A stretch of DNA of 64,000 bases, taken from Acidimicrobiia bacterium. GTDB lineage: Bacteria > Actinomycetota > Acidimicrobiia > Spongiisociales > UBA5794. Position numbers and translations under genes: made by a program. This document shows positions 3,822 through 35,363 of this stretch, in pieces (within the stretch, counting starts at the first letter, position 1; every line of letters starts with the position of its first letter). The stretch spans positions 1 to 64,000 of the forward strand of contig DASWKR010000017.1 of assembly GCA_036396535.1 (NCBI GenBank). The letters run 5' to 3'. The notes under the pieces are model-generated. The model did no database searches. It saw only the letters and a list, made by a program, of their open reading frames with translations, and was not told the DNA's origin.

Positions 3822-4555
3822 GTGATCATCTCCGGTGTCATCCCCGTCGTCTCTCTCTGTGCTCGATGGACCGATTCGCCCCGGTCGCCGACGATCAGCC
3901 TGTAGCCGGCCCAGATCAACGAGAGCCCGACGAGCTCCGTCACGTAGAGCACCCGCACCATGCCGAACCGCGCGAATCCGCCGCCGATCCCCGGCAAGAT
4001 CGCGCCCGTCGCGATGACGGCGTTCCCCCAGACGCGCCACCGCGCCCCGGGCTGGCTGCGGTATCTCCAAGCGGACCAGATCGCTCCTCCCACGAGGAAC
4101 GTCACCGCATACAGGTTGATCACCGGCGAGAGGAGCCGCACCCACTGCCACCCGAGGACGTCGCCGCTCAGGTGATGCTCCTCGACCGCTTCCCGCACGA
4201 TCGGAGAGGCGACGACGAGGGAGGTCGCCATGGCAACGTAGGTGAAGAGCCAGACGGCGAGGCGGTCGGCCTTGCGACGCGGCAGCAGGAGGTAGACGGT
4301 GCCTTGGGCGAGAGGCGCCCCACCGAGCAGTGCGCCTGAGACGTACCAGGCGCGAAAGACGATCTCGTTCCATCCGAAGAGCGTCGTGAGCGCCTCGGTG
4401 GAGGTACCGACCCCGTAGAGGGCGACGCCGATCATCCACCACAACAGGTATCGGGCGTCCGGCTTGCTCCGCCAGTGGCGCCACAGCACCACCGTGAAGC
4501 TCGCGGCGACCACCGTCGAGGCGAGCGGCAAGTAGTCGATGGGGTTGGTGCTCAC
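3818..4555 (-). CDS. Seven-helix membrane protein leading the heme-uptake operon
   Basis: About 245 residues with seven predicted membrane helices (for example PLASTVVAASFTVVLW, LLWWMIGVALYGVG, LIWAGYRLIVG). I do not recognise the family. GTG 4555 is preferred over a TTG at 4612, because GAGAGG lies 3 nt before the GTG and the N-terminus then runs straight into the first helix. It is first in the hmuTUV transcript and its stop overlaps hmuT by 4 bp, so it is probably co-translated with the heme-binding protein. A role in heme sensing, passage or handling is guessed from position only. Confidence 0.65.
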   Translation of the reverse strand: MSTNPIDYLPLASTVVAASFTVVLWRHWRSKPDARYLLWWMIGVALYGVGTSTEALTTLFGWNEIVFRAWYVSGALLGGAPLAQGTVYLLLPRRKADRLAVWLFTYVAMATSLVVASPIVREAVEEHHLSGDVLGWQWVRLLSPVINLYAVTFLVGGAIWSAWRYRSQPGARWRVWGNAVIATGAILPGIGGGFARFGMVRVLYVTELVGLSLIWAGYRLIVGDRGESVHRAQRETTGMTPEMIT

Positions 4556-4632
4556 GGACCTCTCGCATTCGGGCCGGAGTGGAACCCAATCCGATCCGAC
4601 AGCCGACAGCAAGTCGGGAGTGCGAGTCGGCC

Positions 4633-4638
4633 TACGCT
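4633..4638 (+). promoter_or_regulatory. Putative -10 box (TACGCT) for the NADH dehydrogenase gene
   Basis: TACGCT ends 6 nt before the ATG at 4645. No Shine-Dalgarno lies between them. This spacing predicts a leaderless transcript. No good -35 hexamer is visible. Confidence 0.45.
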
Positions 4639-4644
4639 GATCGG

Positions 4645-5925
4645 ATGGCGTGGTACGACGTTCTCATCGTCGGAGGCGGCTTCGGAGGCGCCTTCTGCGC
4701 CCGCGAGCTCGAGCGGCGATTGGGAGGTCGCAGCGAGCGCGTCCTGCTCGTGGCGCCGGACAACTTCATGCTGTTCTCGCCGTTGCTGCCCGAGGCGGCC
4801 TCCGGGACGTTGGAGCCACGCCATGCGGTCATCCCGCTGCGAGAGCTCCTCTCGGAGACGGAGCTCCTCATCGGCACGGTCTCCGGCCTCGACGTCGCTG
4901 CGAGGCGCGCAACCGTCGAGGACATCAATGGCGGCATCCACGAGATCGAGTTTCGAGTGGCGGTCCTCTCGCCCGGATCGATCCCCACCGTCCTGCCGAT
5001 CCCCGGCCTCCGCCAACACGCCGTCGGCTTCAAGACCCTTGCCGACGCCATCTGGCTCCGCAACAGGGTGCTGTACCAGCTCGATGCCGCTGAAGCAGCA
5101 AGGACGGTGGAGGAACGCCGCAAGCTGCTGACGTTCACCTTCATAGGTGGCGGATACGCCGGCGTCGAAGCGATCGCCGAACTGGAGTCGCTCGCCCGCG
5201 ACGCCCTGAAGCGTTATCCGGGCCTCACCCGAACCGACATGCGGTGGGTGCTCGTCGAGGCACAGGGCTCGCTCCTCCCCGGGCTCCACGAGCGGCTCGC
5301 CCGGTTCACCGAACGGGTGCTTCGCAGGAGGGGCATCGAGGTGTACCTCGACACTCGACTCGAGTCGTGCGAGGGAAAGCTCGTGGTGCTGAGCGGCGAC
5401 CGCACGACGCCGTTCCCCTCCGAGACGATCGTCTGGACTGCCGGGCAGCGTCCGAATCCCGTCGCCGGGACGTGGGACTTGGAGACGGATGAGCGGGGCT
5501 TCGTTCCCGTCGACGACCACATGCGGGTGGGCAACCGTCCCGACCTGTTCGCAGTCGGCGACCTCGCCGCCGTGCCCGACCCCGACGGGGGGATCAGCCC
5601 GAACACGGCACAGCATGCGCTTCGGGAGGCGAAGGTGGCGGCCGCCAACGCCGCAGCCTTCTTCGGAGCGGGCGACGCCGTCCCGTTCACCTATCGCAAT
5701 CGTGGGCTCGCCGTCACCCTCGGCAAGTGGCAGGGGGCGGCGCAGGTGAAGCGCTGGACGTTCACCGGTCCGCTTGCGTGGTGGATGGGCCGCTCATACC
5801 ACCTGCTGATGATGCCCGGCCTCGCCAGGAAGAGCAGGATCGTCGGCGACTGGACGTTCGCGTTGCTGTTCCCGCGCGACGTGTCCCAGCTCGGTCGGCT
5901 CGGCGAGCCGTCGCCGCTCGCCTGA
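4645..5925 (+). CDS. ndh: Type II NADH dehydrogenase (NDH-2), FAD-dependent
   Basis: A 426-residue pyridine nucleotide-disulfide oxidoreductase that passes electrons from NADH to quinone at the cytoplasmic membrane face without pumping protons. FAD-binding GGGFGG is at residues 10-15, the second dinucleotide motif GGGYAG at about 168-173, and FAVGDLAAV is the conserved flavin motif near residue 310. The C-terminal region is hydrophobic/amphipathic (WWMGRSYHLLMMPGLARK), as expected for membrane attachment in this family. The ATG is chosen because the Rossmann strand YDVLIVGGG starts right after it and a -10-like TACGCT sits just upstream. It is divergent from the heme operon. Confidence 0.88.
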   Translation: MAWYDVLIVGGGFGGAFCARELERRLGGRSERVLLVAPDNFMLFSPLLPEAASGTLEPRHAVIPLRELLSETELLIGTVSGLDVAARRATVEDINGGIHEIEFRVAVLSPGSIPTVLPIPGLRQHAVGFKTLADAIWLRNRVLYQLDAAEAARTVEERRKLLTFTFIGGGYAGVEAIAELESLARDALKRYPGLTRTDMRWVLVEAQGSLLPGLHERLARFTERVLRRRGIEVYLDTRLESCEGKLVVLSGDRTTPFPSETIVWTAGQRPNPVAGTWDLETDERGFVPVDDHMRVGNRPDLFAVGDLAAVPDPDGGISPNTAQHALREAKVAAANAAAFFGAGDAVPFTYRNRGLAVTLGKWQGAAQVKRWTFTGPLAWWMGRSYHLLMMPGLARKSRIVGDWTFALLFPRDVSQLGRLGEPSPLA

Positions 5926-31637: not shown

Positions 31638-31850
31638 TCATCGCCGTCCATGGGTGGCGGCAGTCCGCCGATCATGATGATCCCTTCAGCTGGCAGGGAG
31701 GACCGTCTCGACAGGTCGAAGCCGGCCGAAGAGATGTCATCGGATCGGTTGCCACTTCGCGCTCTCACGGCCGGCCGTCTCGAGAACTCGTGGCCCGGGG
31801 ACGGGCGTTCGGATAGCCTCGGATCGAAGCACGCTCTGGGAGGCACGGTA

Positions 31851-32894
31851 ATGACGACGGCGTTGGCGATTGGCACTCTGAAGGGGGCGTGGATCGCCCG
31901 CTCCGACGACGGCGGCGAATGGGATCTCGAGGGGCCGTTCCTCAAGGGATGGCAGGTCAACACGTTCGGGACGGCTCCCGGCGGGGCCCGCCTCCTCACG
32001 ACGGGAAGCCAGTGGTATGGGGCCGCGGTGCATCGCAGCAAGGACCTCGCCGACTGGGAGCAGATCGTGGACGGCCCGGCGTACCCGGAAGAGTCGGGTC
32101 ACAAGCTCGAGCAGATCTGGACGCTCACCACTACCGGCGGCGACCTGTACGCCGGGGTCGCAGAGGCCGGCCTCTTCAAGAGCTCCGACGACGGGTCGAC
32201 GTGGAGCCCGGTGGCGGCCCTGAACGAGCACGAGACCCGCGCGGCATGGATGCCCGGCTTCGGCGGGTTGGCGGCACACCGGATCCTCGTCGACTCCGCC
32301 GACCCTGCCCGGATGTGGGTGGGAATCTCGGCGGTCGGGGTCTTCGCAACCGAGGACGCCGGAGCGAGCTGGGAGCTGCGCAACACGGGCGTGGTGGCTA
32401 CCGGACCCGACGATGACTTCGACATCGGCTACTGCGTCCACGGCCTGGTCGCCGATCCCGATGACGCCGACACGATCTGGCGCCAGGACCACAAGGGTGT
32501 CTATCGCACCACGGACGGCGGCCGCTCATGGGAGCGCATCCAGAACGGGGTCCCGGGCGCCGGTTTCGGCTTCCCAATCGGCAGGGACGATGCCACCGGG
32601 AGCCTCTTCATCGTCCCCCTGGAGGCCGACGAGTTCCGCGCCCCCGTGGACGGCAGGTTCGCCGTGTATCGCTCCAAGGACGGCGGAGACTCGTGGGCGC
32701 CGTCGGGCGACTGGCCCGACGATCCGACATTCGACACGGTGCTGCGGGACTCGATGGCAACCGACGGCGACGGCGGCGTCTACGTGGGCACGTCCGGCGG
32801 CAGCGTCATCTCCACGGGAGACGCCGGGGACTCTTGGACCAAGCTCCCATGGACGTTCCCGCGCATCATCAGCGTCCACGCCTTCAACGAGTGA
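31851..32894 (+). CDS. Asp-box (BNR/sialidase-like) beta-propeller protein
   Basis: 347 residues with about six Asp-box repeats: RSDDGGEW, SSDDGSTW, TEDAGASW, TTDGGRSW, SKDGGDSW and TGDAGDSW, spaced through a predicted propeller. No signal peptide is visible, so it appears cytoplasmic, unlike most sialidases. ATG 31851 has GGGAGG 7 nt upstream; a TAGCCT box lies 31 nt before it. Its TGA shares a base with the ATG of the ubiquitin-like gene that follows (TGATG), implying joint function. A glycosidase activity is not supported, as the catalytic residues of sialidases are not evident. Confidence 0.78.
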   Translation: MTTALAIGTLKGAWIARSDDGGEWDLEGPFLKGWQVNTFGTAPGGARLLTTGSQWYGAAVHRSKDLADWEQIVDGPAYPEESGHKLEQIWTLTTTGGDLYAGVAEAGLFKSSDDGSTWSPVAALNEHETRAAWMPGFGGLAAHRILVDSADPARMWVGISAVGVFATEDAGASWELRNTGVVATGPDDDFDIGYCVHGLVADPDDADTIWRQDHKGVYRTTDGGRSWERIQNGVPGAGFGFPIGRDDATGSLFIVPLEADEFRAPVDGRFAVYRSKDGGDSWAPSGDWPDDPTFDTVLRDSMATDGDGGVYVGTSGGSVISTGDAGDSWTKLPWTFPRIISVHAFNE

Positions 32895-33163
32895 TGCCAC
32901 TCGTCGACGTCACCATCCCGAAGATGCTCGCCTCGCTCGTGAGGAGCGAGCGCCATCTCGCATTCGAGGCGTCGACCGTCGCCGGAGCCCTCGAAGCGCT
33001 CTGCTCCGCCCATCCCGAGCTGAGGGTCCACATCTTCGACGAAGCCGGCGCCGTCAGGCCACACGTCTCGTGCTTCCACAACGCCACCAGCGTCGCGGAC
33101 ACCGCGACGCCCCTGTCCGAAGGCGACGCAATCGTCGTTCTTCAGGCCGTGAGCGGCGGCTGA
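32894..33163 (+). CDS. MoaD/ThiS-family ubiquitin-like protein
   Basis: 89 residues of beta-grasp type ending in Gly-Gly (AVSGG), the C-terminus that is adenylated and thiocarboxylated or conjugated in MoaD, ThiS and SAMP-like proteins. Supporting stretches are VTIPKMLASLV, the helix TVAGALEALCSAHPELR and LSEGDAIVVLQAVSGG. It is translationally coupled to the Asp-box propeller gene rather than to molybdopterin or thiamine genes. It may be a sulfur carrier or a protein modifier; the partner enzyme of MoeB/ThiF type is not in the window. Confidence 0.82.
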   Translation: MPLVDVTIPKMLASLVRSERHLAFEASTVAGALEALCSAHPELRVHIFDEAGAVRPHVSCFHNATSVADTATPLSEGDAIVVLQAVSGG

Positions 33164-33300: not shown

Positions 33301-33633
33301 GTGGAACACAGCTCCCAGCTACTCAAGGGCGTGCTCGACATGTGCCTGCTGGCGTTGATCTCGGAGGAGCCGAGCTATGGATACGAGATGGTGGACAAGC
33401 TCCAGCGGCGCGGCCTCGAGTTGGTCTCGGAGGGCAGCATCTACCCGCTCCTCAGTCGCCTCCAGAAGAAGGGCCTCATCGACGGCTACTTCGTCGAGTC
33501 CACCGGCGGGCCGCCCCGCAAGTACTACCGCATCGAAGAAGCGGGACGTGAGCAGTTGCGACACTGGATCGTCGAATGGGACAAGCTCAACACCGGAGTC
33601 CAGGAGGTGCTGAATGGAGGCGGTAGTGAGTGA
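33301..33633 (+). CDS. PadR-family transcriptional repressor
   Basis: 110 residues: LLKGVLDMCLLALISEEPSYG is the typical opening helix pair, YEMVDKLQRRGLELVSEGSIYPLLSRLQKKGLI the winged-helix recognition region, and PPRKYYRIEEAGREQL the wing (each shown in part of the protein). The short C-terminal helix makes the dimer. GTG 33301 follows GGAG at a suitable distance. The dyads upstream suggest autoregulation. It is the first gene of an operon with the HAAS-NfeD and SPFH genes. Confidence 0.87.
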   Translation: MEHSSQLLKGVLDMCLLALISEEPSYGYEMVDKLQRRGLELVSEGSIYPLLSRLQKKGLIDGYFVESTGGPPRKYYRIEEAGREQLRHWIVEWDKLNTGVQEVLNGGGSE

Positions 33634-34399
33634 TTCGCGCTTCGATCGACTCGTCTCCGACTGTGAGTCCTACTGGAGACAGACCGGGGTTCCGCGCCAT
33701 GCCGTTGCGGAGATGACCGCCGAGCTGCGTTCCCACCTCGCAGAGGCGACCGCAGCCGGCAAGTCCGTCGAGACGGTCATCGGCGGCTCGCTTCCCGCCT
33801 TCGCCGAGTCGTGGGCGGCGGAGCGCCGCTCACCCCGGATACCGTCTGCGGCAGTGGCGCGGAACACGAGGCCGAGGGACATCGGCTTGGCCGTGCTCGG
33901 GGTGGCGGTCGTGGTGGTGGCATTGATCTACGGAAGAAAGGAGGACACCGTGGACATCGAGGTCTGGCGTTGGATCTTCCTGGGCGCGGCGTTCCTGTTC
34001 ACAGCAGGAGAGATGGTGACGGCGGGGTTCTTCCTGCTTCCGTTCGCCATCGGCGCGGGCGTGGCGACGGTGCTCGCCTTCGCCGGCGTCGACGTGCCCG
34101 TGCTCCTCGTCGTGTTCCTCGTCGTGTCGCTCGTGTCCCTGGTGGGACTGCAGCGATACGCCAGGACCGAGGACGATCAGGCTCACCCGGTCGGGGCCAA
34201 GAGATACGTCGGCAGGCAGGTCGTCGTCATCGAGCCGGTCAGCCGGATCGACGGAACCGGGAGGGTGAGGATGGACACCGAGGAGTGGCGAGCAACCACC
34301 GACCTGCCATTCACGATCGAAGTCGGCACGGAGTCGGTCGTCACGGAGGTCAGGGGCACCCGCCTCGTCATCGAGCCCGAGCTGGCCGCCGAGAGCTGA
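33614..34399 (+). CDS. HAAS-domain protein fused to NfeD-like membrane protein
   Basis: 261 residues. Residues 8-72 (FDRLVSDCESYW, ELRSHLAEATAAGKS) resemble the helical HAAS/DUF1700-type adapter that accompanies PadR regulators; a membrane helix follows at about 91-108. From residue 113 the protein is NfeD-like: WRWIFLGAAFLFTAGEMVTAGFF, further helices, and an OB-fold tail (about 195-255, YVGRQVVVIEPV). ATG 33614 has AGGAGGT 5 nt upstream and overlaps the padR end. Inside, AAAGGAGG at 33937-33944 lies 5 nt before an in-frame GTG (33950) exactly where a stand-alone NfeD would begin, so a second product is likely. Confidence 0.78.
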   Translation: MEAVVSDSRFDRLVSDCESYWRQTGVPRHAVAEMTAELRSHLAEATAAGKSVETVIGGSLPAFAESWAAERRSPRIPSAAVARNTRPRDIGLAVLGVAVVVVALIYGRKEDTVDIEVWRWIFLGAAFLFTAGEMVTAGFFLLPFAIGAGVATVLAFAGVDVPVLLVVFLVVSLVSLVGLQRYARTEDDQAHPVGAKRYVGRQVVVIEPVSRIDGTGRVRMDTEEWRATTDLPFTIEVGTESVVTEVRGTRLVIEPELAAES

Positions 34400-34436
34400 G
34401 TTCCAATGAGATCGAGCAACCAGAAAGGAGCATGAA

Positions 34437-35363
34437 ATGGGCATCTGGCTAGCAGCCTTCCTGGCTGTCGTCGTCCTCATCTTCATCTACTTCGCCATGG
34501 CGGTGAAGATCGTGCAGCAGCACGAGCAGGGCCTCGTCGAGCGATTCGGACGGTATCGGAAGACGCTCGACCCGGGGTTGCACCTCATCGTGCCGCTCGT
34601 GGACGCCATCCGGAGGGTCGACATGCGAGAGCAGGTGGTCGACGTCCCGCCGCAGGAGGTCATCACGAAGGACAACGTGGTGGTCACCGTGGATGCCGTC
34701 GTCTACTACCAGGCGACCGACCCGGTCAAGCTCAAGTACAACGTCGCCAACTTCATCGTGGCGGCGACGAAGCTGGCCCAGACGAACCTCCGTAACGTCG
34801 TCGGCGACATGGACCTGGACGATGCCCTCACCTCGAGGGACACCATCAACGCCCAGCTCCGTGCGATCCTCGACGAGGCGACGGACGTCTGGGGAACCCG
34901 GGTCGTGCGCGTCGAGATCCAGCGGATCGATCCGCCGGCAGACGTCACGGACGCCATGCACCGCCAGATGAAGGCGGAACGGGACCGGCGCGCCCTGGTC
35001 ACGGAGGCCGAGGGCGAGAAGCGCTCGCAGATCCTCAGGGCAGAGGGCATCAAGGAGTCGCGCATCCTCGAAGCCGAGGGCCAGGCGGAGGCGATCAAGC
35101 AGGTGGCCGAGGCCGAGAAGTTCCAGAAGCTCACCGTCGCCGAGGGCGAAGGCCAGGCCATCGAGCGAGTCTTCGCGGCGATCCACAACGGAGACCCGAC
35201 GGCCGACCTCATCGCCATCCGCTACCTGACGGCGCTCACCGACGTGGCCAACGGGCAGGCGACGAAGATCTTCCTCCCGATGGAGTTGAGCGGGATCCTC
35301 GGATCCGTGGGCGCCATCGGCGAGATCTTCAACGGCGAGCGCGGGGACGCACAGCGCGGCTGA
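34437..35363 (+). CDS. SPFH/stomatin-family membrane protein (partner of NfeD)
   Basis: 308 residues: one N-terminal hydrophobic segment ([21 protein letters not shown]), the SPFH/band 7 domain (about 25-200; [39 protein letters not shown]), and an Ala/Glu-rich coiled coil ([20 protein letters not shown] in part). It is of the slipin/stomatin type, which forms membrane microdomains and oligomers and is typically encoded beside NfeD, as here. AAAGGAG lies 6 nt before the ATG. The operon is padR, HAAS-NfeD, SPFH, so microdomain assembly is probably controlled by the PadR ligand. Confidence 0.9.

Follow-up and report, generated by a model that had tools for sequence, protein, structure and literature searches.

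What might a beta-propeller protein and a small ubiquitin-like protein ending in Gly-Gly accomplish together? The question is raised by the window analyzed here, a stretch of 64,000 nucleotides on contig C17 (DASWKR010000017.1) of the 3.13 Mb, 96% complete draft genome of an Acidimicrobiia bacterium (GCA_036396535.1), in which the genes for two such proteins overlap at positions 31851-33163. In the original prediction, made from the sequence alone, an Asp-box protein was reported to share TGATG with a MoaD/ThiS-type gene ending in Gly-Gly, and both genes were confirmed at their positions. The propeller gene begins with ATG at 31851 and stops at TGA 32892-32894, while the small gene runs from ATG 32894-32896 to its stop at 33161-33163, so that translational coupling of the two at TGATG may be inferred. 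The elements concerned are as follows.

31838-31843, forward strand: Shine-Dalgarno-like GGGAGG, 7 nt 5' of the propeller ATG, read from the sequence
31851-32894, forward strand: gene for a seven-bladed Asp-box beta-propeller, 347 amino acids, 3B7F (YP_299179.1) family, no signal peptide seen (open reading frame and translation, phmmer, AlphaFold, Foldseek, VIA-align)
32892-32896, forward strand: TGATG stop/start, a 1-base overlap between propeller and small gene
32894-33163, forward strand: gene for a MoaD/ThiS-family (CysO/SAMP1-like) ubiquitin-fold protein, 89 amino acids, C-terminus AVSGG (open reading frame, Pfam, PDB match, hidden Markov model)
33056-33064, forward strand: R55-P-H57 codons of the small protein, a signature setting pair MoaDs apart from CysO-like paralogues
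33155-33160, forward strand: C-terminal Gly-Gly codons of the small protein (translation, alignment)

Conservation of the gene pair

The two genes very probably constitute one functional unit, and the functional coupling originally proposed for them is strongly supported by conservation across many genomes. When 198 relatives were searched with the small protein, 76 of the genomes were matched; among the 30 best loci, one of which is the window's own, a propeller gene was adjacent in 21, one was cut by a contig end, six were MoaD-MoeA fusions and two were neither. Bias of this search is removed when the propeller leads. An adjacent same-strand MoaD-like open reading frame (ORF) was then observed in 69 of the best 80 loci out of at least 575 stretches in named genomes, and in 22 of the best 30 loci of the phylum, where 93 of 296 genomes were matched; these pairing rates apply to close members, and distant members may be paired less often. 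A partner was present in 115 of all 135 propeller loci and, when distinct propellers are counted, in 105 of 125, both totals including loci that the small-protein search had supplied. In 77 of the 100 pairs measured, the genes overlapped or lay no more than 20 bp apart. Pair rows in a tree of the carriers bear 13 phylum labels. The check proposed with the original prediction, a search for conservation of the gene neighborhood, thus found the pair conserved.

Gene order was examined in fifteen records of a plasmid collection. In the beta/gamma-proteobacterial records the small gene lies upstream of the propeller gene in all nine that were read of the ten listed (L034, L035, L187-L191, L196, and L197; the propeller of L191 reads in three pieces), and it is likewise upstream in L145, which belongs to the class of the window. 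It lies downstream in the plasmid records L036 and L192, and elsewhere in 112 of 115 loci, duplicates included. The order has been inverted yet the genes are still adjacent, implying that adjacency outlived a rearrangement. The pair is common, not obligatory, since no partner was detected in four plasmid records (L033, L193, L194, and L195) and seven phylum loci of family f47 have a propeller without an adjacent partner. Inspection by eye of three frames downstream of the propeller in 20 loci (19 unlinked and L036), with upstream regions covered by hidden Markov model (HMM) scan only, revealed a divergent MoaD solely in L036, and this one is without Gly-Gly.

For a third partner, 123 of 147 neighboring ORFs, cut to 300 amino acids, were scanned (24 were omitted, 20 of them short); genes were called by a longest-ORF heuristic, which errs in GC-rich DNA. 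Sigma70_r2 was matched in six of the 123 proteins and every other Pfam family in two at most. ThiF, JAB, MoaE, ThiG, and rhodanese are absent from the 25 most frequent of the 118 neighbor families, and single cases may sit among the rest; within the same 25 families, E1, E2, JAB, Mec+, and CysM genes are not recurrent beside the pair. Clustering of the neighbors gave small clusters only, scattered, the largest in 11 loci. In the window, five flanking genes were scanned, ClpB and MscS upstream and PadR, NfeD-like, and SPFH downstream, and no molybdopterin, thiamine, or other cofactor gene is among them, in line with the original claim of no adjacent molybdopterin or thiamine genes. The module appears to have two parts.

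Several individual loci may be recorded here. The MoaD domain stands at the N-terminus of MoeA in L024 (1422-2924, forward strand) and L026 (268-1770, reverse strand), as judged by Pfam, and in L025, L028, L029, and L032, as judged by length and sequence. The propeller without MoaD on the Rhodobacter sp. CZR27 plasmid (L194, 17-2610) is divergent from the ergothioneine genes egtB and egtD, a single case. The propeller frame is in pieces with the MoaD-like neighbor retained in L191 (Paraburkholderia phymatum plasmid, 1491-2630) and L047 (5946-7053), through either sequencing error or decay. In L114, a record titled Mycobacterium sp. KBS0706, the pair is nested within Inquilinus limosus with flanking clusters in common, probably reflecting a mislabelled genome or transfer.

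The small protein, the propeller, and its conserved site

The small protein matches Pfam ThiS (PF02597) with 33.5 bits against a cut-off of 22.5. Its best NCBIfam match is SAMP1 (NF041918), with 47 bits below the cut-off of 60, and scores below cut-off were also obtained for archaeal-type MoaD (TIGR01687, 32.8 against 49.5 bits) and ThiS (TIGR01683, 14.2 against 37.45 bits). SAMP1 chains are its best matches in the PDB, and it has the ubiquitin fold and AVxGG tail in common with both SAMP1 of Haloferax and CysO, the carrier of mycobacterial cysteine biosynthesis. An HMM built from the pair proteins, which scores MoaDs of the molybdenum cofactor (Moco) poorly, gave 74-97 bits for nine CysO-like paralogues and 7-28 bits for other ThiS-family stretches of the same genomes; one of 20 ThiS-family stretches was unmatched. 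Residues were compared between 97 pair MoaDs of 78-108 amino acids, with plasmid rows (L036 included), L047, and L107 omitted, and ten paralogues that are called CysO-like by resemblance. R55 is present in 97/97 pair MoaDs and in 6/10 paralogues, H57 in 85/97, where all ten paralogues have F, and S87 in 78/97, where all ten have A. Gly88 and Gly89 are kept in 97/97 and 96/97 of the pair MoaDs. The small protein is CysO/SAMP1-like with an R55/H57/S87 signature of its own, whereas CysO-like proteins have F57/A87.

A script applied to the C-termini of 105 pair MoaDs counted 84 exact Gly-Gly ends, 15 with 1-193 further residues, two cut by contig ends and four without Gly-Gly; a hand check found boundary errors in L054, L138, and L143 and changed these counts to 87, 14, two, and two. 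The extended ones are L007, L009, L010, L047, L048, L056, L067, L071, L074, L086, L123, L124, L132, and L139. Their extensions may represent trimming, tolerance, or draft errors, which are indistinguishable here. The carrier tree (119 rows) requires 3 changes of the pair label, compared with 20.6 in shuffles, and is a tree of few columns, many weak forks, and unsettled bootstrap. By score, and for the most part by clustering, the pair proteins are distinct from the sampled Moco MoaD, ThiS, and CysO-like paralogues, with L132 and L139 as exceptions. Given this grouping, the three label changes, and the weakness of the tree, a single origin of the pair MoaDs is neither shown nor excluded by it.

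The propeller protein begins with MTTALAIGTLKGAWIARS, where no signal peptide is visible by eye, as originally stated. The six Asp-boxes claimed for it are replaced by five canonical eight-residue ones (SSDDGSTW, TEDAGASW, TTDGGRSW, SKDGGDSW, and TGDAGDSW) and two degenerate ones (SDDGGEW and SKDLADW). An AlphaFold model was obtained with a predicted local distance difference test score (pLDDT) of 90.6 and a predicted template modelling score (pTM) of 0.90. Against PDB 3B7F, phmmer gave E 2.5e-46, Foldseek an end-to-end template modelling score of 0.89, and VIA-align Z 44.6 with 2.2 Å over 344 residues. From the Asp-boxes, the predicted strands, and the 3B7F match, the protein is assigned as a seven-bladed member of the 3B7F / YP_299179.1 family, with which it has fold, full-length similarity, and a single Asp-box propeller in common. 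3B7F is Ralstonia eutropha Reut_B4987, a "putative glycosyl hydrolase". In PMC2716378 its tunnel measures 9 by 11 Å, and the YP_299179.1 family is a 7-bladed Asp-box family without functional characterization; the word MoaD is absent from the main text of that paper, and its passages considered here mention no partner.

The structural matches following 3B7F are seven-bladed 6-phosphogluconolactonases at Z of about 27, tied with GH74 glycosidases at Z 26.7. Sialidases and GH74 glycosidases have the Asp-box propeller fold in common with the pair propeller, but the latter is a single seven-bladed domain without visible signal peptide, and glycosidase and sialidase family models remained below cut-off (BNR_2, 13.4 against 31.4 bits; NF045728, 53.3 against 175). 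The Sortilin-Vps10 model passes its cut-off (39 against 33), with its best stretch at residues 108-239, and neither pair protein matched the PADLOC models of anti-phage defense at E 0.01. The public annotation of the family as sialidase or glycosyl hydrolase looks wrong, because a signal peptide is missing and a Gly-Gly carrier is the partner of the protein. Host contig C19 encodes a second Asp-box-like protein (L002, 461-955), a distant one with E 2.9e-5 to the propeller of the window.

Conservation of the propeller was computed over 117 homologues, 100 with a linked MoaD and 17 unlinked. K11, W90, W133, H143, S160, C195, H197, Q212, H214, W227, and R299 are kept in 98-100% of the linked and 17/17 of the unlinked proteins, and R263 in 92% and 16/17, respectively. 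It can be observed in the predicted strand order that K11, S160, H214, and R263 fall in or adjoin B-C turns, while W90, H143, H197, and R299 follow D-A loops, at the A strands or immediately ahead of them. B-C and D-A elements share one face of a propeller, and it is this face that bears the active sites in related folds. By the predicted order, one such face would hold K11, W90, H143, S160, H197, H214, and R299, within its B-C and D-A loops or next to them. The codons of six of these residues are as follows.

31881-31883, forward strand: K11 of the propeller (98% of 100 linked, 17/17 unlinked homologues)
32277-32279, forward strand: H143 of the propeller, invariant
32328-32330, forward strand: S160 of the propeller, invariant
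32439-32441, forward strand: H197 of the propeller, invariant
32490-32492, forward strand: H214 of the propeller, invariant
32745-32747, forward strand: R299 of the propeller, invariant

Linked and unlinked propellers differ at W34, V103, G107, W156, and other positions, differences for which descent may equally account, because 7/17 unlinked rows come from family f47 and three from Rhodobacterales.

Proposed sulfur transfer and alternative roles of the pair

Exactly one ThiF-family E1 activating enzyme is encoded in the host genome, with a rhodanese domain N-terminal to ThiF (L148, contig C91, 2530-3684, forward strand); passages of PMC1779556 describe ThiF E1s with a C-terminal rhodanese domain. 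The host also has one MoaE on another contig (C70) and a second ThiS-family (MoaD) domain, with a PPVSGG end, near the start of a long hydrophobic protein (L149, contig C60:1-9000, 3047-4291, reverse strand). The hydrophobic stretch after this internal PPVSGG is apparently multi-spanning and has no Pfam match. Across the order, many genomes have PF02597 matches in open frames of about 330-390 amino acids; these suggest that a fusion of MoaD to a membrane protein is conserved, from which the carrier would be freed only by cleavage after Gly-Gly. Only the small protein and the membrane-fused MoaD match PF02597 in the host genome, and a search of that genome with the small protein at E 0.001 returned only itself. 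The small protein was considered as the host's only MoaD, a candidate excluded by the separate membrane-fused domain and by the distribution of the genes, MoaE being present in 43 of 49 same-family relatives and the pair in only 4. Ordinary use in Moco synthesis is unlikely, since the host has the rhodanese-E1, MoaE, and a separate membrane-fused MoaD. The idea of a sole MoaD had arisen from the surroundings of MoaE in 18 genomes (18 of 20 stretches), where the pair HMM (E 1) and a pattern for Gly-Gly ends detected no MoaD, a weak test in view of the poor scores this HMM gives to Moco MoaDs.

One Prok-JAB is also present in the host (L198, contig C61, about 4061-4792), adjoining RNase PH and Ham1, which is the arrangement of mycobacterial Mec+. 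No cysteine synthase or ThiS-family match was found among 28 of 50 ORFs scanned around it, and the locus looks like the Mec+-CysO-CysM cluster of mycobacteria with its middle gone. A set of 39 genomes was chosen, in which the pair is seen in 34, G113 has its small gene at the edge of a contig, and four f47 members have a propeller that lacks a linked partner. In this set E1 is present in 38, PF02597 in 38, and MoaE in 36; the corresponding numbers in 14 control genomes are 12, 11, and 11.

We tentatively favor, at somewhat less than an even chance, a role of the propeller as the acceptor enzyme of a dedicated sulfur carrier, with the general rhodanese-E1 as the source feeding the relay. The original suggestions of a target, receptor, or cofactor-binding partner stand beside this as candidate roles of the propeller. 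The C-terminal Gly-Gly of the small protein would be adenylated and then converted to a thiocarboxylate by the rhodanese-ThiF E1 encoded elsewhere in the host, after which the charged carrier would dock on the propeller's loop face. Through a Lys/His/Ser/His/His/Arg site at the mouth of the central tunnel, the propeller might then transfer the sulfur to a metabolite that is small and probably anionic. Its part would be the one that ThiG, MoaE, and CysM play for ThiS, MoaD, and CysO, respectively. The carrier-acceptor layout, the nearly strict Gly-Gly, and the invariant His/Arg/Lys-rich, enzyme-like site all point to a sulfur relay. With a shade more reserve, the pair could represent a pathway, widespread in bacteria and so far undescribed, of the sulfur-carrier or ubiquitin-like kind; its only two dedicated parts would be the CysO/SAMP1-like protein and, as acceptor enzyme, the seven-bladed propeller. 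As in MoaD/MoaE and ThiS/ThiG, a small Gly-Gly carrier is encoded next to a larger partner, but the partner is here a propeller in place of a MoaE fold or TIM barrel, and no cofactor genes are among the flanking genes. According to passages of PMC1779556, a dedicated Gly-Gly carrier and its recipient often have adjacent or fused genes, as for ThiS with ThiG and MoaD with MoaE.

Several observations weigh against the acceptor role. The chief doubt is the lack of any link from the module to a metabolite; in both the neighbor clustering and the Pfam scan of 123 proteins no metabolic gene travels with the pair, and therefore the substrate cannot be named. The invariant residue set is equally kept in the 17 homologues without adjacent MoaD, and so may serve carrier-independent chemistry. 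Gly-Gly is lost while the pair is kept in L036 (5105-5380, VLPALA) and L100 (7055-7336, IIIKTAMIG), the ORF continues for 1-193 residues beyond Gly-Gly in 14/105 pair MoaDs, and pair rows L132 and L139 group with Moco-type MoaDs on the carrier tree (97/74). As E1 is widespread in the controls (12/14), its co-occurrence with the pair says little; it is compatible with activation by E1, not proof of it. Joined chains were also folded. Fifteen natural in-frame pairs have one stop between the genes, and thirteen of them were read through and aligned with single propellers and MoaDs, L113 first. AlphaFold gave pTM 0.86, 86-97 for the MoaD blocks and about 46-51 for the linker; the last three residues remained below pLDDT 50, and docking of the tail was not shown by these scores.

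Of two serious rivals, the first is ubiquitin-like modification, which is possible but unlikely; the small protein would be joined by its Gly-Gly end to lysines, either on the propeller or on proteins that the propeller recruits, and be removed by JAB. SAMP proteins are protein modifiers, and SAMP1 chains are the closest solved relatives of the small protein, SAMP1 being also its best NCBIfam match, below cut-off. Prok-JAB was present in 17/17 tested propeller-carrying genomes against 8/14 controls, and ORFs extending beyond Gly-Gly would need trimming. However, operonic bacterial ubiquitin-like conjugation systems have E1, E2, and JAB in the operon, whereas none of these is among the five flanking genes of the pair or recurrent beside it in the 25 most frequent neighbor families. 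The host JAB, moreover, adjoins RNase PH and Ham1 in the manner of mycobacterial Mec+, and no conserved acceptor lysine was identified besides K11, which the strand order places at the tunnel mouth.

As the second serious rival, we regard as rather unlikely a non-covalent complex in which the propeller is a lactonase- or hydrolase-like metabolic enzyme and the small protein an accessory or regulatory subunit whose Gly-Gly is chemically unused. The 6-phosphogluconolactonases (Z about 27, tied with GH74 at Z 26.7) as next matches after 3B7F, the active-site-like set retained in propellers without linked MoaD, and the pair retained in L036 without Gly-Gly would all fit such a complex. But few parts of the small protein are as well conserved as its Gly-Gly (97/97 and 96/97), needless in a mere subunit, and a fold common to many propellers reveals no function.

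It seems quite improbable that the small protein doubles as the CysO-type carrier of the host. The host does have an E1 and a Mec+-like JAB, and the surroundings of the JAB yielded neither a CysO nor, among the 28/50 ORFs scanned, a cysteine synthase family; no free-standing carrier other than the small protein of the window was detected, own-genome searches having returned the small protein (self-search, E 0.001) and, with PF02597, the fused MoaD. Such a role leaves the propeller unexplained, however, and with MoaE in 43/49 same-family relatives and the pair in only 4, no general need for it is indicated; the genome is, besides, a 96% complete draft. The CysO-Mec+-CysM system has an adjacent JAB and cysteine synthase, both of which the pair lacks among the five flanking genes and the 25 most frequent neighbor families.

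An ordinary moaD or thiS standing by chance beside a propeller gene is largely refuted and very improbable: the Pfam assignment is indeed ThiS, but the pair is conserved under 13 phylum labels despite the order inversion, the ThiS model TIGR01683 reaches 14.2 against 37.45 with no thiamine family among the five flanking genes, the moa neighborhood of a canonical Moco MoaD is missing with MoaE on C70 and a second MoaD on C60, and scores and most tree positions separate pair proteins from the paralogues (L132 and L139 excepted), which agrees with the original suggestion of more than a simple moaD or thiS.

Significance and minor observations

Each half of the pair belongs to a known family and the pairing appears undescribed. 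In open-licence PMC literature, with subscription papers and preprints outside the search, no paper on a MoaD/propeller pair was found. The main text of PMC1779556, a 2006 survey of such neighborhoods, contains no propeller, sialidase, or BNR, and no MoaD-propeller pair is described in the portions of the beta-grasp papers PMC1949818 and PMC1796856 that are covered here. The 3B7F family has had a crystal structure since 2007 with no function found, and the pairing with a carrier supplies a testable hypothesis for a propeller family that occurs under 13 phylum labels in hosts including Pseudomonas and Burkholderia. PA1355/PA1356 may be the pair of Pseudomonas, a tentative assignment from which nothing is drawn here; PA1356 is named in PMC11538994. 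If the propeller is an acceptor, the pair would be a fourth carrier-acceptor pair beside ThiS/ThiG, MoaD/MoaE, and CysO/CysM, with a fold not previously seen among acceptors of this chemistry and a product yet to be discovered; a sulfur relay would imply an unknown thiolated metabolite or modification in many bacteria. Conjugation, if it occurs, would represent a minimal bacterial modifier system without E1 or E2 of its own. In the window itself, PadR regulator, NfeD-like, and SPFH genes follow in succession 3' of the pair at 33301-35363, resembling an ordinary membrane-protein operon.

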